From assembly GCF_003236305.1 (NCBI RefSeq), contig NZ_POTX01000036.1, positions 1 through 34,209 on the forward strand: a DNA stretch of 34,209 bases, in the 5' to 3' direction. Under the pieces are notes generated by a model that saw nothing but the letters and a program-made list of their open reading frames with translations, had not been told where the DNA came from and searched no databases. Made by a program: the position numbers and the translations under genes. Positions 7,117 to 21,501 of the stretch are shown here, one piece after another. The stretch is from Micromonospora endophytica (GTDB lineage: Bacteria > Actinomycetota > Actinomycetes > Mycobacteriales > Micromonosporaceae). Positions within the stretch are counted from its first letter, which is position 1. Every line of letters starts with the position of its first letter.

Positions 7117-8136
7117 ATGCGTACCCAGTCGGTGCTTGTCGTCCTGTTCGACGGGGTGCAGCCGCTCGACGTGGCGGGGCCGGTCGACGTCTTCTCGGTG
7201 GCGGACCGCTTCGTCGGGAGCGCGGGCCGGCCGCCGTACGTTGTCCGGACGGCTTCCGTCGGGGGCGGGGCGGTGCGTGCGGCCGGCGGCCTTCGGCTGG
7301 TGCCCGACTTTGACCTGGCCGAGGTCGATGGCGCCGACCTTCTGCTGGTGCCGGGTGGGCCGGGTGTCGAGAATGTCGATGATCGTCTGGTCTCGTGGCT
7401 GCGCGATCGCGCGCCCGGCGTGAACCGGGTGATGTCGGTCTGCACGGGGGCCTATCTGCTGGCTCTGGCCGGTCTGCTGGACGGCCGCCGGGCGACGACG
7501 CACTGGGAGGCCTGCCCCTACCTTGCGCGGAGGTTTCCCGAGGTCGAGGTCGATCCGAACCCCATCTTCGTACGGGACGGCTCGATCTCGACCTCGGCCG
7601 GCGTGACTGCGGGCGTGGACCTGGCGATCGAACTGGTCGAGGAGGACTTCGGCCGGTCGGTGGCTCACGAGATCGCCCGACTGCTGGTCGTCTACGTGCG
7701 CCGGCCGGGCCACCAGGCCCAGGTCAGCGTGCAGCTCACGACTCAGATTGCGCGGTCCGAACCGCTCAGCGAGGTCCAGTACTGGGCGGCCGCTAACCTG
7801 TCCGCCGACCTCTCCGTCCCCGCGATGGCGCAGCGGGCCGGACTTTCGCCCCGGCAGTTCGCACGCGTCTTCACCGAGCAGGTCGGCATGACCCCGGGCC
7901 GCTACGTCGACCTCGTCCGGCTGGAAGCGGCGCAGCGCATGCTGACCGATACCCAGGACGGCGTGCTCGGCATCGCGCGCCGTTGTGGATATGGATCGCC
8001 GGAGGCGATGCGCCGGGCCTTCATGCGGGAACTCGACGTCTCGCCGACCGAATATCGTCGCGGCGTCTCGGATGCATCGGTGGTTGCCGGCCAAGTCCGG
8101 CGGCCGATGGCAGATTTGTTGCCCAACATGACATAG
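7117..8136 (+). CDS. GlxA/FtrA-type transcription regulator (DJ-1/PfpI domain plus AraC HTH)
   Basis: The ATG at 7117 follows GAAGGAGG by 5 bases; the product has 339 residues. Residues ~5-190 are a DJ-1/PfpI (glutamine-amidotransferase-like) domain: FDGVQPLDVAGPVDVF, LLLVPGGPG and the nucleophile elbow SVCTGAYLL with Cys109, followed by LLDGRRATTHW. Residues ~225-325 are an AraC double HTH (MAQRAGLSPRQFARVFTEQ, IARRCGYGSPEAMRRAFMRE). In this family the DJ-1 domain usually senses a ligand and the HTH binds DNA. It is co-directional with, and about 105 bases upstream of, the ABC uptake operon, which it probably controls. The operon's last gene carries a related DJ-1 domain, hinting that both recognise the same molecule. 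Confidence 0.92.
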   Translation: MRTQSVLVVLFDGVQPLDVAGPVDVFSVADRFVGSAGRPPYVVRTASVGGGAVRAAGGLRLVPDFDLAEVDGADLLLVPGGPGVENVDDRLVSWLRDRAPGVNRVMSVCTGAYLLALAGLLDGRRATTHWEACPYLARRFPEVEVDPNPIFVRDGSISTSAGVTAGVDLAIELVEEDFGRSVAHEIARLLVVYVRRPGHQAQVSVQLTTQIARSEPLSEVQYWAAANLSADLSVPAMAQRAGLSPRQFARVFTEQVGMTPGRYVDLVRLEAAQRMLTDTQDGVLGIARRCGYGSPEAMRRAFMRELDVSPTEYRRGVSDASVVAGQVRRPMADLLPNMT

Positions 8137-8223
8137 GCGCGCTCGCGGACGGGCTATAGGCTGCCTTCAAATGGCGAACTACATTGGAAGTAAGACCTTT
8201 CTACCTCGCGGTGGAACGGCGTT

Positions 8224-8237
8224 AGGCTTGCGAGCCT
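8224..8237. promoter_or_regulatory. Inverted repeat just before the binding-protein gene
   Basis: AGGCT-TGCG-AGCCT is a perfect dyad ending 4 bases before the ATG at 8242. The extended context TTAGGCTTGCGAGCCT loosely resembles an IdeR/DmdR iron box half (TTAGGTTAG), but the match is partial. It could be a metal-dependent operator or a translation-blocking hairpin. Confidence 0.35.
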
Positions 8238-8241
8238 CTCG

Positions 8242-9348
8242 ATGGCAAGAATTGGTGTGCCGGTGAATCCTTCAAGGAATTCCTACTTTCTCCGTACGAC
8301 GTTGGCAGTCGGCGTCGTCGTGGCGCTCGGCGCCTGTTCCGGGACGAAGGTGGCCGATGCGCCGGTGGCATCTGCCGGCGCTTCCGCAGCGGCCGGGCCG
8401 CGGACGACGTATCCGTTGACGATCGACAACTGTGGCCGCACGGTCACCTTCACCCAGGCGCCGCGCCGGGTCGTGCTGCTCAACGGCGCGTCCGTGGCAG
8501 AGGTCGAGTCGATGATCGCGCTCGGTGTGCAGGGCGCGATCGTGGCGAACAGCCAGACGTACGGCGTCTCGGACGATCCGACCATGGTTGCGCGGATCAA
8601 GGCCATCCCCACCGGCGGGGTGAAGCTGAACAAGAACTTCGAGGTGCCCCGTGAGCAGGTGCTGGCCCAGTCGCCGGACCTGGTGATCTCGACGTGGGCC
8701 GGCGGGTTCGACGACAAGATCGGCTCGATTACCCGGGACGAGCTGGGCAAGACCGGCATCAACAGCTTCGTGACGCCGTCCAACTGCGCCAACGGCGCGA
8801 CCTCACCGCGCCCAGAGGACACGCAGACGTACGCCAAGCGGTCGGTTGAGTCGTCGTTCGATCTGCTGACCCAGCTCGGGTTGATCTTCGACGTCCAGGG
8901 GCGGGCGGCGCAGGTCGTGCAGGAGGCGCGCGCCGCGCTGGCCGCGCTCCCGTCCCCGGCGACCGAGCGCAAGCGGGTCCTGGCCGCCTACCCGAGCATG
9001 GGGTCGGCAATGGGGCTCGCGGTCCCGGCGGTGTTCGGTGGCGGGATCTTCGACGACATCATCACCCGGGCCGGCGGTGTCAACGCGTTCGGCGGCCTGA
9101 GCGACCAGCAGCTCGGCGCGATCAACGTCGAGGCCCTGGCCGCGGCGAACGTGGACGTGCTGGTGATCGGGCTCTATCAGCCGGACGACGATGCCGAGAA
9201 GTTCGCCGAACAGTTGTTCGCGCAGTTCCCGCAATGGCCGGCGTCGAAGACGAAGACGTACACCTCCGTGTCCGACAGCTTCTATCTCGGGCCGTTGAAC
9301 GCGATCGCGGTCAAGCGGATCAGCGATGGCGTCCGCGCCGCCGGTTGA
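8242..9348 (+). CDS. FecB/BtuF-type ABC substrate-binding lipoprotein
   Basis: Product of 368 residues. The N-terminus has a basic start, a hydrophobic core and lipobox LGAC, so Cys is lipidated and the protein is anchored outside the membrane. The mature part has the class III binding-protein layout: NCGRTVTFTQAPRRVVLLN, then VPREQVLAQSPDLVIST, a long connecting helix, VNVEALAAANVDVLVIG-type second lobe (actual INVEALAAANVDVLVIG) and a short C-terminus. Such proteins bind iron-siderophores, heme, cobalamin or other metal chelates; the sequence alone does not show which. The ATG at 8242 has no clear ribosome-binding site, and GTGs at 8257 or 8263 are possible starts. The stop overlaps the permease start by 23 bases. 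Confidence 0.92.
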   Translation: MARIGVPVNPSRNSYFLRTTLAVGVVVALGACSGTKVADAPVASAGASAAAGPRTTYPLTIDNCGRTVTFTQAPRRVVLLNGASVAEVESMIALGVQGAIVANSQTYGVSDDPTMVARIKAIPTGGVKLNKNFEVPREQVLAQSPDLVISTWAGGFDDKIGSITRDELGKTGINSFVTPSNCANGATSPRPEDTQTYAKRSVESSFDLLTQLGLIFDVQGRAAQVVQEARAALAALPSPATERKRVLAAYPSMGSAMGLAVPAVFGGGIFDDIITRAGGVNAFGGLSDQQLGAINVEALAAANVDVLVIGLYQPDDDAEKFAEQLFAQFPQWPASKTKTYTSVSDSFYLGPLNAIAVKRISDGVRAAG

Positions 9349-10414
9349 GCGGATCCGGCGGACCGGTCCGGCGGCGGTCCGCGCCCACCTCATTCCCGAT
9401 CGCGCCTTCCCGTTGTTGATTGTGCTCCTGGCCGGCGCGGTCGCGCTGACCGCGGCCGTCGCGATCGCCGTTGGCACGGTGTCGGTTCCGCTCGCCGACG
9501 TGGCTGCGGTGACCTGGGCTCATCTCACGCCCGGGGATACCGAGCGCAGCCTGCTGTACGACCAGATCGTGTGGGATTTCCGGGTGCCGCGGGTGCTGCT
9601 GGCCGGGGTGGCCGGTGCGGGCTTGAGCATCGCCGGAGTCTGTCTGCAGGCGTTGGTGCGTAATCCGCTAGCCGATCCCTATCTGCTCGGTATCTCCTCA
9701 GGTGCCTCGGTCGGTGCGGTTGTCGCGCTGACCCTCGCGCCCGCGGTGATCGCCGGGCTGGGGGTCGCCGGTGCGGCGTTCGCCGGGGCGCTGGCCAGTG
9801 TGGCGCTGGTTGTGGGCCTGGCTCAGCGGGCCGGCCGGGTCGCGCCCGGGCGGTTGATCCTGGCCGGTGTGGCAGTCGGATACCTGGGCTCGGCCGTGAC
9901 CAGCTACATCCAGTTGGAGGCCAACCCGAGCGAGCTGCGGGGAATCATGTTCTGGTTGCTCGGCTCGGTGGCCACGGCATCCTGGAGCGATCTGCTGGCA
10001 CCGGCCGTCGCCCTGGCGTGCTGCCTGCTGTGGCTGCTGGTTGACGGGCGCCGGCTCAACGCGTTGACGATGGGCGAGACGTCGGCCGCCGGGCTGGGGA
10101 TCGACGTCAACCGACTGCGGCTCGGGCTGCTCGCCGCGGCGTCGCTGCTGACCGCGACGATCGTCAGCGTCGCCGGCGGAATCGGCTTCGTCGGGCTGCT
10201 GGTGCCGCACGCGGTCCGTCTGCTGGTCGGCCCGGACCATCGACGGGTGGTGCCGGTGTCGCTGCTACTCGGGGCGGTGTTCCTGATCATGGTAGACCTG
10301 CTGTCGCGGACCCTGGACCGACCGAACGAGATGCCGATCGGCATCTTCACCGCAGCCATCGGCGCGCCATTCTTTCTCTGGCTGCTGCGCAGACAGTCCG
10401 GAGCGGTCCGGTGA
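9326..10414 (+). CDS. FecCD/BtuC-type ABC permease
   Basis: Product of 362 residues with about ten hydrophobic segments. Family signatures are visible: FRVPRVLLAGVAGAGLSIAG, ALVRNPLADPYLLGISSGAS, the LGSV/GE coupling region (LTMGETSAAGLGI) and GFVGLLVPHAVRLLVGPDHR near the C-terminus. It forms the membrane channel that takes substrate from the lipoprotein at 8242. It starts inside the end of that gene, and its stop overlaps the ATPase start (GTGA), so the three proteins are translationally coupled. Confidence 0.94.
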   Translation: MASAPPVERIRRTGPAAVRAHLIPDRAFPLLIVLLAGAVALTAAVAIAVGTVSVPLADVAAVTWAHLTPGDTERSLLYDQIVWDFRVPRVLLAGVAGAGLSIAGVCLQALVRNPLADPYLLGISSGASVGAVVALTLAPAVIAGLGVAGAAFAGALASVALVVGLAQRAGRVAPGRLILAGVAVGYLGSAVTSYIQLEANPSELRGIMFWLLGSVATASWSDLLAPAVALACCLLWLLVDGRRLNALTMGETSAAGLGIDVNRLRLGLLAAASLLTATIVSVAGGIGFVGLLVPHAVRLLVGPDHRRVVPVSLLLGAVFLIMVDLLSRTLDRPNEMPIGIFTAAIGAPFFLWLLRRQSGAVR

Positions 10415-11232
10415 GGGTCACCGCGACAGGCGTCTCGGTGAGCATCGACGGCGCACCGATCCTGGACGAGGTCTCGCTGACCGCCGCGCCCGGCTGCATA
10501 ACCGGACTGGTCGGGCCGAACGGGTCGGGCAAGAGCACCTTGCTGCGCTGCCTCTACCGGATCATCCGTCCGCAGCAAGGTGCGGTGCTCATCGGCGATG
10601 ACGACGTCTGGCAGGTCCCCGCACGCCGGGCCGGACAGTTGCGGGCGGTCATGGCGCAGGATCAAGAACTGGACAACGACTACAGCGTCCGCGACATCGT
10701 CGCCATGGGCCGGATCCCGCATCAGCGGCTGCTCGAGCGGGAGAGTTCCGCCGACCGCGCCATCGTGGACGAGGCGCTGGCCCGCATCGGCATCGAGTGG
10801 GCGCAGGACCGGCGGTTCGCCACGCTGTCCGGTGGCGAGCGCCAACGTGTCCTGCTTGCCCGCGCGCTGGCCCAGGACGCACCGGTCCTGCTGCTCGACG
10901 AGCCGACCAACCACCTGGACGTCGGCGCCCAGCTGGAACTGCTCGACCTGATCCGCGAGCTTCGACTCACCACCGTGGCCGCTCTGCACGACCTCGACCA
11001 CGCGGTCGCGTACTGCGACGCCGTCGCTCTGCTGGATCAGGGCCGCATCGTCGCGGCCGGCGAACCCGTCGCCGTGCTCACCCCGGAACGACTGGCCGAG
11101 GTCTTCGGCGTACGCGCGGCAATGACCACCCACTCACTCACCGGCCGGCCGCACCTGGTGTTCGCCACAGGTACGTCACGGCCCAGTTCTGAAAGGTACG
11201 CTCACAGTGAGCACGCCAACCGCGCCCAATGA
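10411..11232 (+). CDS. FecE/BtuD-type ABC transporter ATPase
   Basis: Product of 273 residues. Walker A is GPNGSGKST (residues 35-43), the signature is LSGGERQR (139-146), Walker B is VLLLDEPTNHLD (159-170) and the H-loop is ALHDLDHA (about 190). All catalytic positions are intact, so it should power the 9326 permease. The start GTG overlaps the permease stop, and the C-terminus overlaps the next gene by 26 bases. The final ~20 residues are hydrophilic and appear to be an extension generated by that overlap. Confidence 0.95.
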   Translation: MRVTATGVSVSIDGAPILDEVSLTAAPGCITGLVGPNGSGKSTLLRCLYRIIRPQQGAVLIGDDDVWQVPARRAGQLRAVMAQDQELDNDYSVRDIVAMGRIPHQRLLERESSADRAIVDEALARIGIEWAQDRRFATLSGGERQRVLLARALAQDAPVLLLDEPTNHLDVGAQLELLDLIRELRLTTVAALHDLDHAVAYCDAVALLDQGRIVAAGEPVAVLTPERLAEVFGVRAAMTTHSLTGRPHLVFATGTSRPSSERYAHSEHANRAQ

Positions 11233-12061
11233 GCCCGTCCCCGATGCCCGGATCACCGCACCGCTCGACACTCCTACGACCGGCACCATAACCGTCGCTT
11301 TCCTGATCTCGCCCCAAGCGGAACTCGTCGACTTCGCCGGGCCCTGGGGCGTGTTCGAATACGTCCAACTCGACGGCGGGCACAATCCGTTCACGCTCTA
11401 CACGGTGGCGGCCACGACCGAACCCGTCCGCATCTCCGGCGGCATGGTCCTGGTACCCGGTCACGACGTCGAAAGCGCTCCCACACCGGACATCGTGGTC
11501 GTCCCGGCCATGGACATGGCGAAGATCGCCCCCGAAGCGCTGGACTGGCTGCGGCGGGTCCACCGCCACACCGCCGTGACCATGTCTATCTGCAACGGAT
11601 CCTATGTGCTCGGACAGGCCGGCCTCCTCGACGGCAAGACCGCGACGGCCCACCACGCCGGCTACAACGCCCTTCGCGCCTTGTTCCCCGCCGTCGCCGT
11701 CATCCGCGGGGTCCGCTTCGTCGAGGACGGAAAGATCGCCACCGCCGGCGGACTCACCTCCGGCACCGACCTCGCGCTGCGCATCGTCGAGCGCTACTTC
11801 GGGCGAGACGTCGCCCGCCGAACCGCCACCTACCTCGAATATCAGGGCACTGGCTGGATGCACCCCGACAGCAACGGGCAGTTCGCCGACCACGCGGCGA
11901 GCTCATTGGGACATCCGGTGTGCCCGGTCTGCGAGATGCCTGTATCACCCGATACCGCGCTCACCCTCGATCACGGCGGGAATACCTGGTATTTCTGTAG
12001 CACGTGGTGCCAGGAGCAGTTCCAAGCCGCGCCGGAACGGCTCAGCGGCAAGTCTCACTGA
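11207..12061 (+). CDS. DJ-1/PfpI domain fused to a YHS metal-binding domain
   Basis: The GTG at 11207 follows GAAAGG by about 10 bases and lies inside the ATPase gene; the product has 284 residues. Residues ~27-215 are a DJ-1/PfpI domain: LVDFAGPWGVFEYV, DIVVVPAMD and the nucleophile elbow MSICNGSYVL with Cys129. It is closest in style to isonitrile hydratase/GlxA N-domains. Residues ~237-280 are a YHS domain: CPVCEMPVSP, then WYFCSTWCQEQF, with Cys239, Cys242, Cys264 and Cys268 as likely metal ligands. There is no signal peptide, so it acts in the cytoplasm. Placement at the end of an uptake operon suggests it handles the imported ligand, perhaps releasing or accepting metal. The chemistry is unknown. 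I do not know a named family with this fusion. Confidence 0.88.
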   Translation: MSTPTAPNEPVPDARITAPLDTPTTGTITVAFLISPQAELVDFAGPWGVFEYVQLDGGHNPFTLYTVAATTEPVRISGGMVLVPGHDVESAPTPDIVVVPAMDMAKIAPEALDWLRRVHRHTAVTMSICNGSYVLGQAGLLDGKTATAHHAGYNALRALFPAVAVIRGVRFVEDGKIATAGGLTSGTDLALRIVERYFGRDVARRTATYLEYQGTGWMHPDSNGQFADHAASSLGHPVCPVCEMPVSPDTALTLDHGGNTWYFCSTWCQEQFQAAPERLSGKSH

Positions 12062-12247
12062 CAGAATCTCGCTGCCTCCCGCAACCAAGCCAGACGCGAA
12101 GCGGACCGTGAGCGTAGCCGAACAGACCTGCAAGCCGTCGCCACCGTGTTCGCCACCATGACGGGCCAGCCACACCCTCCGTTCGGAAACTCGGTCACGG
12201 GCCTTGAAACCAGCTAACCAACTCTCCATCAGATCCAGCGCTTGACA
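12062..12247 (+). mobile_element. Solo end of an IS element related to the one at 34083
   Basis: Bases 12206-12247 (read on the minus strand from 12247) match the IS terminus beginning at 34083 at about 36 of 42 positions. Shared blocks are TGTCAAGC, TGATGGA and AGTTGGTTAGCTGGTTT. As at 34 kb, a frame ends in Thr-Ser-stop exactly at the AACCAGCTAACC block. Upstream (12062-12205) a frame reads RNQARREADRERSRTDLQAV, which does not look like a transposase. Only the terminal ~40 bases are securely IS-derived. The rest is unexplained. Confidence 0.6.
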
Positions 12248-12336
12248 GACCGCGGCGGCCGGGGTCAGCGAGGCGAGCACGCCGGGTTGCAGGCGTAGGT
12301 GATGCGGCGATGGTTACCGCCGGAGCGAAGATCCTG

Positions 12337-12978
12337 TCAGGCGGTCCTGCGCAAGGCGATCACATTGTCGGTCACCTCGGCCGTCTGACCGCCGGGGCCG
12401 GTGGCCGTCCGAACGCGGGCTTCGCAGCAGAGCACCTGCCAGGACGCGGGATCGAGGGCCAGACCGGCCAAGGTCTCCTCCGGGGTGGGAATCGTGGCCC
12501 CCTGGTTCCAGGACCACGGGGCCACCGAACCATGGTCGACGATCAGCAGCATGCCGCCTCGGTTCACCTGTTCGCCGAGTTCCCGCAGGATGCGGGCCCT
12601 GGGGAACTCGAAGAGGCTCTGCAGGTAATGGGCACTCACCAGGTCCCATCTGCCCGAGGGCAACGAATCCACCAGGTCGTGCCGTTCGGTACGGATCCTG
12701 TCACTTAGCCGCTCCTGGGCGGCGCGCTCGTTCACCCGTTGCAGGGCGGCATCGGCGATGTCGACCGCGGTGACCTGCCAGCCGCGTTGGGCGAACCACA
12801 GACTGTCACCGCCCTGACCGCATCCCAGGTCGAGGGCGGCGCCCGGCGAAAGGTCGCCGACCATGGCGGCAAGGACCGGGTTGACGCGTAGCTCCCACGG
12901 CGAGGCGGCGACCTGCTGGTGCAGGCTCTCCCAGAACTCGGCCGGTGTTGCCGCGTCCGGAGGTTCCATGTACTTCAT
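12337..12978 (-). CDS. Class I SAM-dependent methyltransferase (TehB/UbiE-like)
   Basis: The ATG at 12978 is chosen because GAGGA lies 9 bases upstream; the product has 213 residues. Motif I is ALDLGCGQGGDSLWFAQRGW (residues 48-67), followed by the acidic VTAVDIADAAL loop, HDLVDSLPSGRWDLVSAHYL (motif II region) and RGGMLLIVDHG (motif III). The opening TPAEFWESLHQQ with an early Trp resembles the tellurite-resistance/thiol methyltransferase group. Substrate cannot be told. It is monocistronic and divergent from the frameshifted gene at 13.2 kb. Confidence 0.88.
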   Translation of the reverse strand: MKYMEPPDAATPAEFWESLHQQVAASPWELRVNPVLAAMVGDLSPGAALDLGCGQGGDSLWFAQRGWQVTAVDIADAALQRVNERAAQERLSDRIRTERHDLVDSLPSGRWDLVSAHYLQSLFEFPRARILRELGEQVNRGGMLLIVDHGSVAPWSWNQGATIPTPEETLAGLALDPASWQVLCCEARVRTATGPGGQTAEVTDNVIALRRTA

Positions 12979-13200
12979 ACGCTCACGTCCTCGCGATCGA
13001 TCGGGCTCCACTGGGAGGGTGCCCCCTGTTTCACGGTGCCGGCAAGGAAACTTGCCGGACCGGCAAACGACGTCCGGCGGGACAACGACGGTTCAGGCGC
13101 ACAGGTCCGGCGTGATAGGTGGTCTGCACGATTCCACCGCATCATCACCATGATCGTAAGCCAATAGAGGGGCTCACCTTGGCTCCGACACAGTGGGCTC

Positions 13201-16433: not shown

Positions 16434-17054
16434 ATGAATCCAAACGACGACGATGGCCAGGGCCGATCGGGCGTGGCCCGCCGGAGCGTTCTGGGTGGCG
16501 GTGCCGCCGCCGCGTTGGCGATACCGCTGCTGCAAGGCGGGGCACCGGCCGCGCAGGCCGCACCGGTAGCCGAGGCGGCGAGCGTCGAACTTGTGACCGT
16601 CAAAGTCAAGGTCAACGGCAAGCCGGTCACGGTACGGGTGGACCCGCGCGTCACGCTGCTCGACACCCTGCGGGAAGAGCTGGAACTCACCGGTACGAAG
16701 AAGGGCTGTGACCGTGGCCAGTGTGGTGCCTGCACCGTGCATGTCGACGGTCGGCGGGTGCTGTCCTGCCTGACGCTCGTGGCCACTGTCGACGAGCGCG
16801 AGGTCACCACGATCGAGGGTCTGGCCCGGGGCGATGTGCTGCACCCGATGCAGCAGGCGTTCATCGAGCGCGACGGTCTCCAGTGCGGCTTCTGCACGCC
16901 GGGGCAGATCATGTCGGCGGTCGGCATGGTCCAGGAGGGCCCTGCCCGCACCGACGACGAGATCCGCGAGCGCATGTCGGGCAACATCTGTCGATGCAGT
17001 TGTTATCCGTTCATCGTGGACGCGATCCGTGACGCGCAGAAGGTGATGCGCTGA
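16434..17054 (+). CDS. paoA: Tat-exported aldehyde oxidoreductase, 2Fe-2S subunit (PaoA-like)
   Basis: ATG 16434 follows GGGGAG by 5 bases; the product has 206 residues. A twin-arginine signal (RRSVLGGG, Arg16-Arg17) precedes an Ala-rich hydrophobic core. The plant-type 2Fe-2S domain uses Cys92, Cys97, Cys100 and Cys112 (KKGCDRGQCGACTVHVDGRR). The second, helical cluster domain uses Cys151, Cys154, Cys186 and Cys188 (QCGFCTPGQ; NICRCSCYP). This matches E. coli PaoA/YagT rather than cytoplasmic xanthine dehydrogenase, which lacks a Tat signal. The subunit passes electrons from molybdenum to FAD and probably carries the whole folded complex out through Tat. First gene of a four-gene operon; its stop overlaps the next start. 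Confidence 0.93.
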   Translation: MNPNDDDGQGRSGVARRSVLGGGAAAALAIPLLQGGAPAAQAAPVAEAASVELVTVKVKVNGKPVTVRVDPRVTLLDTLREELELTGTKKGCDRGQCGACTVHVDGRRVLSCLTLVATVDEREVTTIEGLARGDVLHPMQQAFIERDGLQCGFCTPGQIMSAVGMVQEGPARTDDEIRERMSGNICRCSCYPFIVDAIRDAQKVMR

Positions 17055-18031
17055 TGCGGGCCTACACGTTCACCCAGCCGCGCGGCGTCCGCGAGGCCCT
17101 CGCGGACGCCGGCACCGACACGGCCTTCCTGGCCGGCGGTACGACCCTCGTGGACCTGATGAAGCTCGATGTGGTGACGCCGGCCCGGGTCGTGGACATC
17201 AACCGGCTTCCGCTGCGCGGCATCACGCTCGACCGCGACGGGCTGCACATCGGGGCACTCGAACGGATGAGCGATGTCGCCGCCGACCGCAACGTGCGTC
17301 GGGACTATCCGATGATCGCTCAGGCGTTGGAGCTGAGCGCGTCCGCCCAGCTTCGCAACATGGCGAGCATCGGCGGGAACCTGTTGCAGCGCACCCGGTG
17401 CGGCTACTTCCGTGACGTCACCACCCCCTGCAACAAGCGGGAGCCCGGCAGCGGCTGCTCGGCGCTGACCGGGATCAACCGTACGCACGCGATCCTCGGC
17501 ACCAGCGACGCGTGCGTGGCGACGCACCCCAGCGATCTGGCCGTCGCGCTGGTGGCACTCGGCACCGACGTGCATCTGGTCAGCGGCCAGGGCACTCGTA
17601 CGGTGCCACTCGACACGTTCTACACCCTGCCCGGCAGCACACCCCACCTTGAGAACGTGCTGCGACCGGGCGAGCTGATCGCCGGCATCACGGTCCCCCG
17701 CTCGATGTGGGCGGCGAACTCGGTCTACCTCAAGATCCGCGACCGGCAGTCGTACGAGTTCGCCCTCACCTCGGCAGCTGTCGCCGTCGAGTGGCGCGGC
17801 CGCACCATCAGGCAGGCCCGGATCGCCGCCGGCGGAGTCGGCACCAAGCCCTGGCGACTGCCGGCGGTCGAGAGCGCCCTGGCCGGTCAGCCGGCCACCG
17901 CCGATGTCTTCGAGGCGGCGGTAAGCGCCGCCGCGGACGGTGCCCGGCCGCTGTCGCACAACGGTTTCAAGCCCGCGCTGCTGCGACGCACGCTGGTCCG
18001 GGCCCTCACCGTCCTGGCGGAGAGCCGATGA
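17054..18031 (+). CDS. paoB: Aldehyde oxidoreductase FAD subunit with 4Fe-4S segment (PaoB-like)
   Basis: Product of 325 residues. FAD-binding motifs are FLAGGTTLVDLMK (residues 25-37) and SIGGNLLQRTRC (105-116). The following insertion carries four cysteines, Cys116, Cys126, Cys135 and Cys154 (CGYFRD; PCNKREPGSGCSA; SDACVATHPSD). In E. coli PaoB an equivalent segment binds an extra 4Fe-4S cluster, so the same is expected here. It has no signal of its own and should be exported with the PaoA-like subunit. The start overlaps the previous stop as TGATG. A 19-codon frame starting at 18028 (ATGA with its own stop) may couple translation to the next gene. Confidence 0.93.
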   Translation: MRAYTFTQPRGVREALADAGTDTAFLAGGTTLVDLMKLDVVTPARVVDINRLPLRGITLDRDGLHIGALERMSDVAADRNVRRDYPMIAQALELSASAQLRNMASIGGNLLQRTRCGYFRDVTTPCNKREPGSGCSALTGINRTHAILGTSDACVATHPSDLAVALVALGTDVHLVSGQGTRTVPLDTFYTLPGSTPHLENVLRPGELIAGITVPRSMWAANSVYLKIRDRQSYEFALTSAAVAVEWRGRTIRQARIAAGGVGTKPWRLPAVESALAGQPATADVFEAAVSAAADGARPLSHNGFKPALLRRTLVRALTVLAESR

Positions 18032-18079
18032 ACGGCGAGCCCGAGGCCGTGACCGCACTGGCACGCAGCGGCGGCGCTC

Positions 18080-19291
18080 ATGCTTGAGCTCGCCACCGAA
18101 CTCCTCGAACGGGTCCGCAGCCGGACACCTTTCGTGACCGCCACCGTCACCCGCGTGGAGGGCAGCGCACCGCGCCAGCCCGGCGCGTCGCTTGTCGTCG
18201 ACGCGGACGGCGCGGTGCTGGGCAACGTTTCCGGCGGCTGCGTCGACTCCGCCGTCTATCAGGCGTGTCAGGAGATGCTGCTGGGGGAGCGCGGCCCGAG
18301 AACCCTGCGGTTCGGCTACACCGACGACGACGCGATCGGCGTCGGCCTCACCTGTGGCGGGACGATCGAGCTGTTCCTGCGTCATCACGATCCGGGTGCC
18401 GAACCCGGCCTGGAAGCGGCGTACGTCGACGCCGCCCAGGACGAGCCGGTCGCCGTCGCCACCGTCGTACGCGGCCCGGACACCCACCTCGGACGGGTGA
18501 TCGTGGTGCGTCCCGAGCGTCATCTCGAGGGAACCCTCGGCGACGAACGGCTCGATGAGGTGGCTGCCGTACACGCGACCGGCGTCCTGCACGCCGGGAC
18601 GAGCGGCACTGTGGACATCGGGGTGGCCGACGGCTACTGCCGGCAGCCGATGACCCTGCTTGTCGAGTGCAACACCCCGGCACCACGGATGCTCATCTTC
18701 GGGGCGATCGACCATGCCGCGGCGCTGGCCCGGCTGGGTGCCTTCCTCGACTACCGGGTGACGGTCTGCGATGCGCGGGCCACGTTCGCCACACCGGACA
18801 GATTCCGGTACGCCGACGAGGTCGTCGTCGACTGGCCGCACCGCTACCTGGCAGCCCAGCGCCTCGACGGCAACACCGTCATCTGCGTACTCACCCACGA
18901 TCCGAAGGTCGACGTACCGCTGCTCACCGCCGCCCTGCGGCTGCCGGTCAGTTACGTGGGGGCGATGGGGTCACGGCGTACCCATGAGCAGCGGCTGGTG
19001 CGGCTGCGCGAGGCCGGCCTGACCGACCGGGAACTCAGCCGGCTGCACTCGCCGATCGGGCTCGACCTCGGCGCCCGTACCCCGCAGGAGACGGCGTTGT
19101 CGATCGCGGCGGAGATCGTCTCGCACCGGCACGGCGGTTCCGGGGTGCCGCTGCGCACCGGGGTACCCATCCACCGTCGCGCCGTGGCGTCGTCGGCTTC
19201 CTTCCCGCCGGCCTGGACGGCGGAACACCTCGCTCAGGGCGTCGGCATCACCCGGCCTCGGTCCTCTTCTCGTAGTCAGGAGTCACGATGA
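18080..19291 (+). CDS. XdhC/PaoD-type molybdenum cofactor maturation factor
   Basis: Product of 403 residues. The N-terminal XdhC domain shows VEGSAPRQPGASLVV and LGNVSGGCVDSAVYQ, the conserved SAPR and GGCV blocks. The C-terminal XdhC Rossmann domain shows RMLIFGAIDHAAALARLG, YADEVVVDWPHRYL, VCVLTHDPKVD-type (actual ICVLTHDPKVDVPLL) and SYVGAMGSRRTHEQR. Such proteins bind molybdenum cofactor, help its sulfuration and insert it into the large subunit; they remain in the cytoplasm. A Ser/Arg-rich tail of ~50 residues is additional. Its position between FAD and molybdenum subunits differs from E. coli, where paoD comes last. Its stop overlaps the next start. Confidence 0.92.
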   Translation: MLELATELLERVRSRTPFVTATVTRVEGSAPRQPGASLVVDADGAVLGNVSGGCVDSAVYQACQEMLLGERGPRTLRFGYTDDDAIGVGLTCGGTIELFLRHHDPGAEPGLEAAYVDAAQDEPVAVATVVRGPDTHLGRVIVVRPERHLEGTLGDERLDEVAAVHATGVLHAGTSGTVDIGVADGYCRQPMTLLVECNTPAPRMLIFGAIDHAAALARLGAFLDYRVTVCDARATFATPDRFRYADEVVVDWPHRYLAAQRLDGNTVICVLTHDPKVDVPLLTAALRLPVSYVGAMGSRRTHEQRLVRLREAGLTDRELSRLHSPIGLDLGARTPQETALSIAAEIVSHRHGGSGVPLRTGVPIHRRAVASSASFPPAWTAEHLAQGVGITRPRSSSRSQESR

Positions 19292-21501
19292 CCGTCTCCC
19301 CACTCGGCCGCGACATCGACCGCGTCGACGGCCGGGCGAAGGCCACCGGCACCGCCCGGTACTCGGCCGACTACCCGGCCGCGAACCTGGCGCACGCCTA
19401 TCTGGTCACCAGCACCATCGCGCGGGGCACGATCTCCGCGATGGACACCACCGCGGCGCAGAACGCACCAGGCGTCATCCGGGTCTACAGCCCGTTCAAC
19501 AAACTCGGGCTGCGGCCGGTGCCCGGCGCCGGGGAGAACTACGCACCCCTGGAGGACACCCAGATCCGGTTCCGGGGACAGATCATCGCCATGGTGGTCG
19601 CCGAGCGGCTCGAGCAGGCGCGGGACGCCGCCCGGCTGGTCCACACGACCTACGACGAGCAGACGCCGCGGTTGTCCCTCGCCGACGAGCCTCGCGTGCC
19701 GGCTACCGGGCCGCCCGGCGTACCCGCGCCGAGCGCCACCGTCCTCGCCCCGGGTGTCCCCTCGATCGAGGCGGCGCTCGCCGCGAGCGACGTCGTCGTG
19801 GAGGCCTCCTTCCATCAGCCGATGCAGCATCCCGCCGCGATGGAACTTCATTCCGTCCTCGCCGAGTGGAACAGCGACCAGACCCAGCTGATTCTGTACA
19901 GCGGCGCGCAACTGCCCCACACCTCCGCCATGGTGGCCGCCGGGCGGCTCGGCGTCGCGCCGACGGCGGTGCGGCTGATCGCCCCGTACGTGGGCGGTGG
20001 TTTCGGCAGCCGGGTCTTTCCGTGGTACGACGCCGCCCTGGCCGCGGCCGCGGCCCGCCAACTGAACCGCCCGGTCAAGCTGGTCCTGTCCCGGGAACAG
20101 GTGTTCACGGTGGTCGGCCATCGCAGTGCGGTCAACCAGACCATCAAACTGGGTGCCTCCCGCGACGGGGTCCTCAACGCGGTCAGTCACGTCAGCGACG
20201 CCGCGGTGCCGTTCGTCGGCTACCGGTGGATGCAGCCGGCCGTGGACGTCTCGGCTGTGCTGTACAAGACCCCGAACGTGGCGTTCGACCAGCGGCACGT
20301 CATGCTCGACGTACCTCCGGCCTGCGCCATGCGGGCACCCAACGAGGCTCCCGGAGCCTTCGCGCTGGAGACCGCGATGGATGAACTCGCCGTCGCCACC
20401 GGCCTCGACCCGGTCGAGTTGCGGCTGCGTAACTACGCCACCACCGTGCCCGGGACGGACCGGCGGTGGTCGAGCAAGCATCTCGACGACTGCTATCGCA
20501 TCGGTGCCCAACGCTTCGGCTGGTCGGCCCGCCGCGCCAGGCCCGGCAGCCGGGTCGACGGGCAGTGGCTGGTCGGGATGGGGATGGCCAGCGCCATCTA
20601 CCCGGGCGGCCGCAGGCCGGAACCCATTCAGGCCCGGGTCCAGTTGCGTGATGACGGCACCGCCCTGGTCTCCTCGGCGACCGCGGACACGGGCACGGGC
20701 GCGACCACCCTGCTGGCCATCACCGGAGCCCACGGGCTGGGCATCCCGCTGCGCCGGGTGAGATCCGAAGCCGGTGACACCGCGCTCCCGCAGGGCGCGC
20801 CGTCCGTGGGATCGACCGCCGCGGCCAGTACCGTGCCGGCCGTCGAAGCCGCCGTCGAAGGGGCGGTCGCCGCACTCATCCAGGAAGCGGTCAGCAATCC
20901 ACTGTCACCCTGGCACGGTGCGAACAGCGAGGAACTGACGTACGAGAAGGGTCAACTGCGGGGTAGGGGCCAGTCGATGCCCTTCGGCCGCCTGCTCACC
21001 ACGATCGACCGTCGGAACGTCGAGGCCACCGCGACGGCCCAGCCCGGCCCGGAAGCGGGAGAGTACAAGTTCCACAGCTTCGGCGCGCACTTCTGCGAGG
21101 TCAGAGTCAACCGGTACACCGGTGAACCCCGCATCACCCGCTTCACCACTGTGGTGGACGCCGGCCGGATCGTGAACGCCCAGGCCGCCCGGAGTCAGCT
21201 CGTCGGAGGCGTCATCTTCGGCATCGGGCACGCGTTGCTGGAGGACGACCCGCTCGAACTCGACACCGGGCGGGTGGCCGCCGGCAACATGGCCGACTAC
21301 ATGGTCCCGGTGAACGCCGACATTCCCGCCATCGACGTCCACTTTCTCGACCGTCCCGATCCCGTCATCAACAGCCTTGGCGCTCGGGGTCTCGGCGAGC
21401 TCGGCACCGTCGGCTCCGCAGCCGCTGTCGGCAACGCCATCTTCAACGCCACCGGCAAGCGGATCCGCAGCCTCCCCATCACCCTCGACAAACTGCTGTG
21501 A
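19288..21501 (+). CDS. paoC: Aldehyde oxidoreductase molybdopterin subunit (PaoC-like)
   Basis: Product of 737 residues, the PaoC length and about the same as the isolated xanthine-dehydrogenase-type domain. It opens GRDIDRVDGRAKATGTARYS, the usual start of the family. Cofactor-contact regions include GGGFGSRVFPW (about residues 236-246), MRAPNEAPGAFALE (about 347-360) and TADTGTGATT. The catalytic Glu is in GARGLGELGTVGSAAAVGNA (about residue 702). No signal peptide is present, consistent with piggy-back Tat export on the small subunit. It should oxidise aldehydes to acids with water and pass electrons inward; the physiological aldehyde is unknown. Last gene of the operon; a strong terminator follows. 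Confidence 0.94.
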   Translation: MTVSPLGRDIDRVDGRAKATGTARYSADYPAANLAHAYLVTSTIARGTISAMDTTAAQNAPGVIRVYSPFNKLGLRPVPGAGENYAPLEDTQIRFRGQIIAMVVAERLEQARDAARLVHTTYDEQTPRLSLADEPRVPATGPPGVPAPSATVLAPGVPSIEAALAASDVVVEASFHQPMQHPAAMELHSVLAEWNSDQTQLILYSGAQLPHTSAMVAAGRLGVAPTAVRLIAPYVGGGFGSRVFPWYDAALAAAAARQLNRPVKLVLSREQVFTVVGHRSAVNQTIKLGASRDGVLNAVSHVSDAAVPFVGYRWMQPAVDVSAVLYKTPNVAFDQRHVMLDVPPACAMRAPNEAPGAFALETAMDELAVATGLDPVELRLRNYATTVPGTDRRWSSKHLDDCYRIGAQRFGWSARRARPGSRVDGQWLVGMGMASAIYPGGRRPEPIQARVQLRDDGTALVSSATADTGTGATTLLAITGAHGLGIPLRRVRSEAGDTALPQGAPSVGSTAAASTVPAVEAAVEGAVAALIQEAVSNPLSPWHGANSEELTYEKGQLRGRGQSMPFGRLLTTIDRRNVEATATAQPGPEAGEYKFHSFGAHFCEVRVNRYTGEPRITRFTTVVDAGRIVNAQAARSQLVGGVIFGIGHALLEDDPLELDTGRVAAGNMADYMVPVNADIPAIDVHFLDRPDPVINSLGARGLGELGTVGSAAAVGNAIFNATGKRIRSLPITLDKLL

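Follow-up and report, generated by a model that had tools for sequence, protein, structure and literature searches.

What does a bacterium take up through a transporter whose ATPase gene runs into a gene for a protein joining a DJ-1/PfpI domain to a YHS domain? This question is raised by a locus of Micromonospora endophytica, carried on a stretch of 34,209 nucleotides (here the window; contig C299 of the 6.5-Mb draft genome G000), in which a FecBCD-type ATP-binding cassette (ABC) importer and such a DJ-1–YHS fusion form an operon behind a GlxA-type regulator. We favour, with about even confidence, the reading that this operon is an importer of copper bound to a small organic ligand, that the cytoplasmic fusion attacks the ligand through Cys129 and Asp42, and that its YHS domain takes the copper. 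The link to copper rests on gene neighbourhoods in relatives; the substrate, direction of transport, ligand, reaction, metal hand-over and effector of the regulator we infer. The features concerned are listed by position in the window, with the evidence for each, where ORF stands for open reading frame:

7117-8136, + strand: GlxA-type regulator, 339 amino acids (ORF list, Pfam)
8242-9348, + strand: FecB-type substrate-binding lipoprotein, 368 amino acids (ORF list, Pfam; LGAC lipobox by eye)
9326-10414, + strand: FecCD permease, 362 amino acids (ORF list, Pfam)
10411-11232, + strand: FecE-type ATPase, 273 amino acids (ORF list, Pfam, curated models)
11207-12061, + strand: DJ-1–YHS fusion, 284 amino acids, GTG start, without signal peptide (ORF list, Pfam, alignment, AlphaFold)
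11291-11791, + strand: DJ-1/PfpI domain of the fusion, residues 29-195, with Asp42, Cys129 and His150 (Pfam, alignment)
11924-12040, + strand: YHS domain of the fusion, residues 240-278 by Pfam, with cysteines 239, 242, 264 and 268 (Pfam, domain model)
12337-13011, - strand: S-adenosylmethionine (SAM) methyltransferase, convergent with the operon (Pfam)

In the proposed mechanism, the lipoprotein would capture the copper complex, which FecCD and the ATPase would carry into the cytoplasm. There the DJ-1 domain of the translationally coupled fusion, with Cys129 as nucleophile and Asp42 as acid/base, would modify the ligand and release the metal, the four-cysteine YHS domain would accept the freed Cu(I), and the GlxA-type regulator would sense the complex or the ligand via its own DJ-1 domain. 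In Gram-negative relatives an exported fusion would act in the periplasm, in some cases behind a TonB-dependent receptor and next to copper carriers, such that periplasmic (TonB) and cytoplasmic (FecBCD) members would act at the same uptake step on different sides of the membrane. The most specific guess at the ligand would be an isonitrile-type copper chelator.

The operon and its fusion protein

Overlaps of 23 bp between lipoprotein and permease genes, 4 bp between permease and ATPase genes, and 26 bp between ATPase and fusion genes tie the operon together, and 105 bp separate the end of the regulator from the lipoprotein gene. Every domain scored above its curated Pfam cut-off: DJ-1_PfpI (83.4) and HTH_18 (83.3) in the regulator, Peripla_BP_2 (48.5), FecCD (311) and ABC_tran (115) in the transporter, and DJ-1_PfpI (57.6 bits, cut-off 26.6) and YHS PF04945 (37.5 bits, cut-off 30.3) in the fusion. 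A FecCD permease, an ABC ATPase and a Peripla_BP_2 lipoprotein are thus present together, as expected of a FecBCD-type importer, and PF01965 and Cys129 in the nucleophile elbow (codon 11591-11593) place the fusion in the DJ-1/PfpI superfamily. The initial annotation of this locus, made from the letters alone, had described the same regulator and overlapping genes, the nucleophile Cys129, four YHS cysteines (C239, C242, C264 and C268) and a DJ-1/PfpI domain in the regulator, all of which are confirmed. The 27 in-frame residues upstream of the fusion start hold no signal, and in the related fusion L076 five codons of open frame precede the start.

In both solved fold and sequence, the protein closest to the fusion is the isocyanide hydratase InhA of Pseudomonas fluorescens, a DJ-1 superfamily member of about 28-31% identity that lacks a YHS domain. 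Cys129 and Asp42 align to its catalytic Cys101 and Asp17, but Asn130 replaces its Thr102; by sequence the fusion is therefore isocyanide-hydratase-like and no member of the isocyanide hydratases. AlphaFold modelled the whole fusion at a predicted local distance difference test (pLDDT) score of 91.4. The fold of the YHS part, which the initial annotation had proposed to predict, was modelled alone at pLDDT 88.4, but Foldseek gave it no match at E 0.001, the best matches being YHS regions of monooxygenases and L24e; comparison of the whole model by VIA was filled by DJ-1 folds and was uninformative on this part. Metal binding by the YHS domain is putative. An identical four-gene order was found in the relatives scan described below at three Micromonospora loci and one Dactylosporangium locus, and because this order is kept, the fusion is modelled with high pLDDT and the architecture occurs in several phyla, we regard the operon as beyond chance.

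The regulator shares its two domains with the GlxA/FtrA-type DJ-1–AraC regulators, and Asp18 and Cys109 of its DJ-1/PfpI domain (residues 5-176) align to the isocyanide-hydratase catalytic positions; the same Asp and Cys are kept in 25 of 26 aligned regulators. FtrA itself was rejected (NF006902, 244.6 bits against a cut-off of 425). The importer has the lipoprotein, FecCD permease and ATPase of the FecBCD/BtuFCD-type type II importers for siderophores, corrinoids and haem, but no substrate-specific model reached its cut-off and its orthologues adjoin copper ATPases. An F420-0 transporter (TIGR03868, 87.1 against 392.4 bits; TIGR03869, 299 against 437.35; TIGR03873, 297.7 against 372.4) and a BtuCD corrinoid importer (BtuC model NF007081, 273.4 against 461 bits; ATPase model NF007082, 268.5 against 537) were rejected, as were haem and ferric citrate as substrates, with no curated model at its cut-off. 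No match to the isonitrile synthase family PF05141 was found in G000, nor in 14 control genomes, and the result is hence uninformative.

Relatives of the fusion and their gene neighbours

Relatives were collected from one genome per species with a three-sequence alignment and two peptide patterns, both from the DJ-1 part; the scan is not tied to the YHS part, its patterns reach close relatives only, and the family counts rest on the best 80 of 94 relatives. Sixty-one of these join DJ-1 to YHS and 19 are DJ-1 only, and their sources include Verrucomicrobiota, Acidobacteriota, Pseudomonadota, Myxococcota, Planctomycetota, Actinomycetota and other phyla. Another five rows had initially been counted as YHS-bearing but turned out, when read, not to be; the 67-row alignment holds the window, the 61 fusions and these five. 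Cys129 is kept in 67 rows, Asp42 in 64 and His150 in 67, and C239 in 61, C242 in 62 and C264 in 60; the residue after the nucleophile is Thr in 51 of the 67 and Asn in 13. The fourth YHS cysteine occurs in 11 of 15 proteins of the window's clade (counting the window itself and also truncated L081 and L082, which were assigned to it on similarity) but in only 2 of the 47 remaining proteins, most of which have His (27) or Asp (17) at this position. Thus, the conservation of the YHS cysteines foreseen by the initial annotation holds for three nearly invariant positions but not for the fourth.

In a sample of the window's order, 27 of 397 genomes matched the C-terminal part of the fusion, mostly through other YHS proteins, and a clear in-frame DJ-1 domain was seen in the 30 fetched order-level loci only in G000 and G048, which belong to the same genus. 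Across the phylum sample the only strong match was G000 (242 bits), followed at 36 bits by weaker matches that were not examined singly. A tblastn search of plasmids gave, among the 30 matches listed of 1475, stand-alone DJ-1/PfpI proteins of Acidisarcina plasmids as the two best, reaching query residue 231, short of the YHS domain. On two Acidisarcina polymorpha plasmids, near-identical blocks (L074, L075) pair a GlxA regulator with a divergently encoded stand-alone DJ-1 protein that is close to the fusion's DJ-1 domain.

A simple rule called a signal-like N-terminus in 51 of the 57 fusions that could be scored (25 of twin-arginine type, 22 hydrophobic and 4 with a lipobox), the lipobox call for L080 coming from a motif upstream of a Sec-like N-terminus; four further fusions were truncated and unscorable. 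The six without a signal are four actinobacterial proteins, L093, and L104, which starts MKRRQLL and is twin-arginine by eye. The cytoplasmic location first proposed for the fusion therefore stands for the actinobacterial members, perhaps also for L093, but not for the family at large. A quick tree of 70 rows, with support from the Shimodaira–Hasegawa-like approximate likelihood ratio test (SH-aLRT) only and omitting L081, L082, L130, L134, L139, L144 and the five false YHS rows, grouped the actinobacterial fusions and the window in one clade (SH-aLRT 99), to which the Opitutus protein L080 is joined (100). This clade is nested in one of 13 rows (SH-aLRT 98) whose remaining members are exported by rule except L093. 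Since exported relatives surround the actinobacterial clade, the cytoplasmic form looks derived. A heavy-metal-associated domain suspected by eye in L093 was dropped, as Pfam did not list it at E 0.1.

Besides the window, FecBCD genes accompany the fusion in 4 of 61 fusion loci (L076-L079, with L078 taken as the same genome as G048), all actinobacterial and in one clade. The initial annotation had proposed to test whether the fusion occurs consistently with FecBCD and GlxA-type genes and had named, as an outcome that would refute its reading, most homologues lying without the transporter; this is what we found, and in its literal form the proposal is rejected. Its regulator half held in part: a GlxA-type gene lies within 300 bp of the fusion in 19 of 61 loci, many of them close kin of each other, but not in the remainder. 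Regulator matches of at least 150 bits occur anywhere in the flanks of 22 of the 61 fusions and at 4 of 19 DJ-1-only loci, and L076 has none in its 10-kb flanks. At L110 a LytS-type histidine kinase gene (8601-9854) lies divergent from the exported fusion, in the place of the GlxA regulator, with related frames in L121, L122 and L125 (Pfam for L110 only). When neighbours were clustered, cluster 2 spanned ten loci.

Among the 57 non-actinobacterial loci, a TonB-dependent receptor adjoins the fusion or lies one gene off in six. The distances are 5 bp in L083 and L086, 105 bp in L112 and 157 bp downstream in L115; in L080 a CusF gene stands between receptor and fusion, and in L081 the receptor frame runs into the truncated fusion. 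Copper-type neighbours comprise three CusF proteins in L080 (one with SCO1), CusF in L081, CusF with SCO1 in L111, and, in L115, MbnP followed by a MauG-type di-haem protein with CusF. Counting receptors and copper proteins (CusF, SCO1, MbnP/MbnH) together, 7 of the 57 loci have at least one, with search models built from few positive-locus sequences that may miss weaker relatives, with a weak receptor match in L118 (33 bits) left uncounted, and with at least 1.5 kb present on both sides of the fusion in 43 of the 57, many contigs being short. Of the five CusF matches in the L080 genome, three share a contig with the fusion, as do three of the four that exceed the cut-off. TonB-dependent receptors number 0 to 62 per genome in the 13 searched, and CusF is rare, at a base rate taken from 20 genomes, the four positive ones among them; because receptors are common in most of these genomes, single receptor neighbours prove little. 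PepSY_TM genes occur in L086, L112 and L115, and also 4 kb downstream in L077 and L078. Among the DJ-1-only loci, L146 (8577-16305) has a SCO1-like match and a copper-type ATPase nearby, and L141 and L155 have weak, distant receptor matches. Together with the copper genes near transporter orthologues described below, these neighbours strengthen the idea of an imported metal chelate put forward in the initial annotation and narrow it to copper.

Two described systems resemble these loci. The receptor and PepSY_TM genes beside the fusions of L086, L112 and L115 appear analogous to the CrtA–PepSY_TM copper receptor operons of Bordetella, in the account of which section 4 names no DJ-1–YHS protein (PMC12914433). 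Compared with the methanobactin uptake genes as outlined in PMC3621798 (MbnT, MbnI/R, MbnP/MbnH), L115 shares the receptor, MbnP and the MauG-type di-haem protein, and L083 shares a sigma factor, a FecR-like gene and the receptor. The DJ-1–YHS protein is extra here; methanobactin biosynthesis genes did not turn up, no aimed search having been made.

Transporter orthologues, copper ATPases and the surroundings of the operon

With E up to 1e-20, the lipoprotein matched in 33 of 397 order genomes and, at 1e-40, in 9 of 296 class genomes. Twenty transporter loci were fetched, namely the best 12 of 31 at order level (without G000 and G048) and all 8 at class level other than the window's own, and none of them holds the fusion. 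In L172 the regulator (537 bits) and three transporter genes are followed by a stand-alone, isocyanide-hydratase-like DJ-1 protein overlapping the ATPase frame; in the Micromonospora locus L175 (6546-8471, genome G408) a lipoprotein/ATPase remnant stands beside a homologous stand-alone DJ-1 gene; L192 has a divergent GlxA-type gene (255 bits) 1 kb away and L194 a DJ-1 gene (94 bits). Fusion and stand-alone DJ-1 protein occur together in L077 and L078, and that of L077 matches isocyanide hydratase across its whole length (168 bits). As the DJ-1 partner is constant in kind, being a fusion, a stand-alone protein or both, and YHS is optional, the pattern points to ligand processing as the core function, with metal acceptance added to it. 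In L077 the fusion is followed by the isocyanide-hydratase-like protein (10836-11483) and a third DJ-1 protein with a twin-arginine-like start (11597-12322), neither of which was found in the window.

We then scanned the neighbours of these transporters, covering 84 of 90 ORFs chosen by codon GC content (the six omitted being regulator, DJ-1 or short frames). E1-E2 ATPase (6) and CtaG (3) were among the commonest families. A copper-translocating ATPase above the TIGR01511 cut-off lies within 6 kb of the lipoprotein gene, at distances of 146 bp to 5.4 kb, in at least 9 of the 20 loci, spanning five genera, against an expected number of about 0.095 that assumes even spread and was computed after the pattern was noticed. 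PepSY_TM lies near the transporter in L191. In L168 (7996-8661) an LPMO_10 gene, of a family of copper enzymes, is divergent from the fusion-less FecBCD orthologue.

Around the operon, the SAM methyltransferase gene at 12337-13011 is a probable accessory, because three Micromonospora loci carry a homologue immediately ahead of the regulator; its identification as TehB or as a tellurite-resistance gene was rejected (TIGR00477, 46.5 against 219.5 bits; NF008405, 55.5 against 218). The regulator is immediately preceded by a phage-type integrase gene (PF00589; 5756-6829, - strand), and tRNA genes are found farther upstream (867-2083); the operon may be part of a mobile island, in keeping with its scattered distribution. 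Positions 17054-21501 (+ strand) encode an FAD-binding subunit, an XdhC-type protein and a molybdopterin-binding subunit of the xanthine/CO dehydrogenase family. The terminal 127 bases of contig C117 of G000 are identical to part of the fusion gene (window 11241-11367, equal to L014 10825-10951), and this overlap joins a quinone-oxidoreductase-like frame to the fusion. A second operon copy was rejected as an artefact, since such a shared end is probably one of the overlaps typical of assembly graphs.

Competing readings and the copper-chelate proposal

Several observations weigh against import of a copper chelate. No known copper protein was found among 18 window proteins scanned, and among the matches listed the copper ATPases of G000 lie on contigs other than the window's, the lipoprotein gene of G048 has its nearest one at about 15 kb, and 11 of the 20 FecBCD orthologue loci have none within 6 kb. 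The flanks of L076-L079 yielded no copper ATPase motif, neither a receptor nor the searched copper genes were found at 50 of 57 non-actinobacterial fusion loci, and zinc and nickel genes (ZnuA in L188, NicO in L193) lie near two transporters. Asn130 departs from the hydratase pattern, and copper P-type ATPases, being usually exporters, speak for homeostasis rather than import. The enrichments were counted only after they had caught attention, and related genomes do not provide independent observations. Copper is nonetheless favoured over iron or zinc because the transporter and the fusion each have copper company where the other is missing.

An importer for a siderophore-type chelate of iron or zinc, with the fusion helping to release the metal and YHS as a structural or buffering zinc site, is in our judgement unlikely, although part of the evidence points its way: receptors beside exported fusions pass the broad siderophore model TIGR01783 (cut-off 223.5; L083 271.4, L086 374.3, L112 242.1 and L115 280.4, with the L080 fragment below it at 63.4 bits), a sigma factor and FecR-like gene precede the L083 receptor, whose nearest solved relatives are ferrioxamine and pyoverdine receptors, ZnuA is present in L188, and the YHS-like folds among the PDB matches are presumably mostly structural zinc sites. 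This reading is opposed by the copper ATPases near the transporters, by CusF, SCO1 and MbnP/MbnH beside fusions, and by the lack of an iron- or zinc-specific model at cut-off for the window transporter. Copper P-type (P1B) ATPases are usually exporters, and the copper neighbourhood may thus reflect homeostasis and not import, with FecBCD carrying another nutrient, for instance a corrinoid, and the exporters mere neighbours in shared metal islands. The permease scores 273 bits with the BtuC model and 299 with the F420-0 permease model, both below cut-off, yet this account leaves the copper carriers beside exported fusions without FecBCD unexplained, and we consider it improbable.

The fusion may instead be a general stress, repair or redox DJ-1 protein under a neighbouring GlxA-type gene, placed next to FecBCD by accident in one actinobacterial lineage. 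The restriction of FecBCD to four loci of a single clade, the frequency of nearby GlxA-type regulators and the report that PfpI, the member of this family in P. aeruginosa, acts as a methylglyoxalase (PMC11987610) agree with this, whereas the 26-bp overlap with the ATPase gene is kept in the lineage, a different DJ-1 protein occupies the same place in L172, and receptors and copper genes adjoin fusions of other phyla; it seems to us a doubtful explanation, though less so than homeostasis alone. Finally, the operon might defend against isonitrile antibiotics by taking in or recapturing an isonitrile for hydration by the DJ-1 protein. Isocyanide hydratases are thought to be defensive against isocyanide natural products (PMC10792529) and an isocyanide-hydratase-like stand-alone protein occurs in this or a sister operon, but active import of a poison is odd as defence and both the YHS domain and the copper ATPases near fusion-less transporters go unexplained, making this very improbable.

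For the copper-chelate reading, an isonitrile ligand would unite both halves, because isonitriles chelate Cu(I) and the nearest solved enzyme hydrates isonitriles. Isonitriles are described as binding Cu(I) tightly, and SF2768 as mediating copper uptake (PMC9600254); by analogy, chalkophores such as SF2768 and the mycobacterial diisonitriles would fit a hydratase-like protein in a copper importer. Among the published titles and abstracts searched, with subscription literature mostly outside, none combined isonitrile hydratase or chalkophore with such an importer set, and no paper with both 'YHS domain' and 'DJ-1' was found among the open texts searched, novelty being thereby unproven. More speculatively, and with low confidence, DJ-1–YHS proteins could be a widespread undescribed chalkophore-unloading family acting inside whichever membrane was crossed, in which DJ-1 destroys an isonitrile-type ligand, YHS catches Cu(I) and a regulator of the same fold senses the ligand.

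Bacterial uptake of copper complexes and the later release of copper are described as poorly characterised (PMC12914433, PMC13038864). The locus offers for direct testing a concrete ABC importer clade together with a fused protein that would be part ligand-processing and part metal-accepting. If true, the copper-chelate proposal would place isocyanide-hydratase-like DJ-1 proteins, and with them one group of GlxA-type regulators, in a physiological context.

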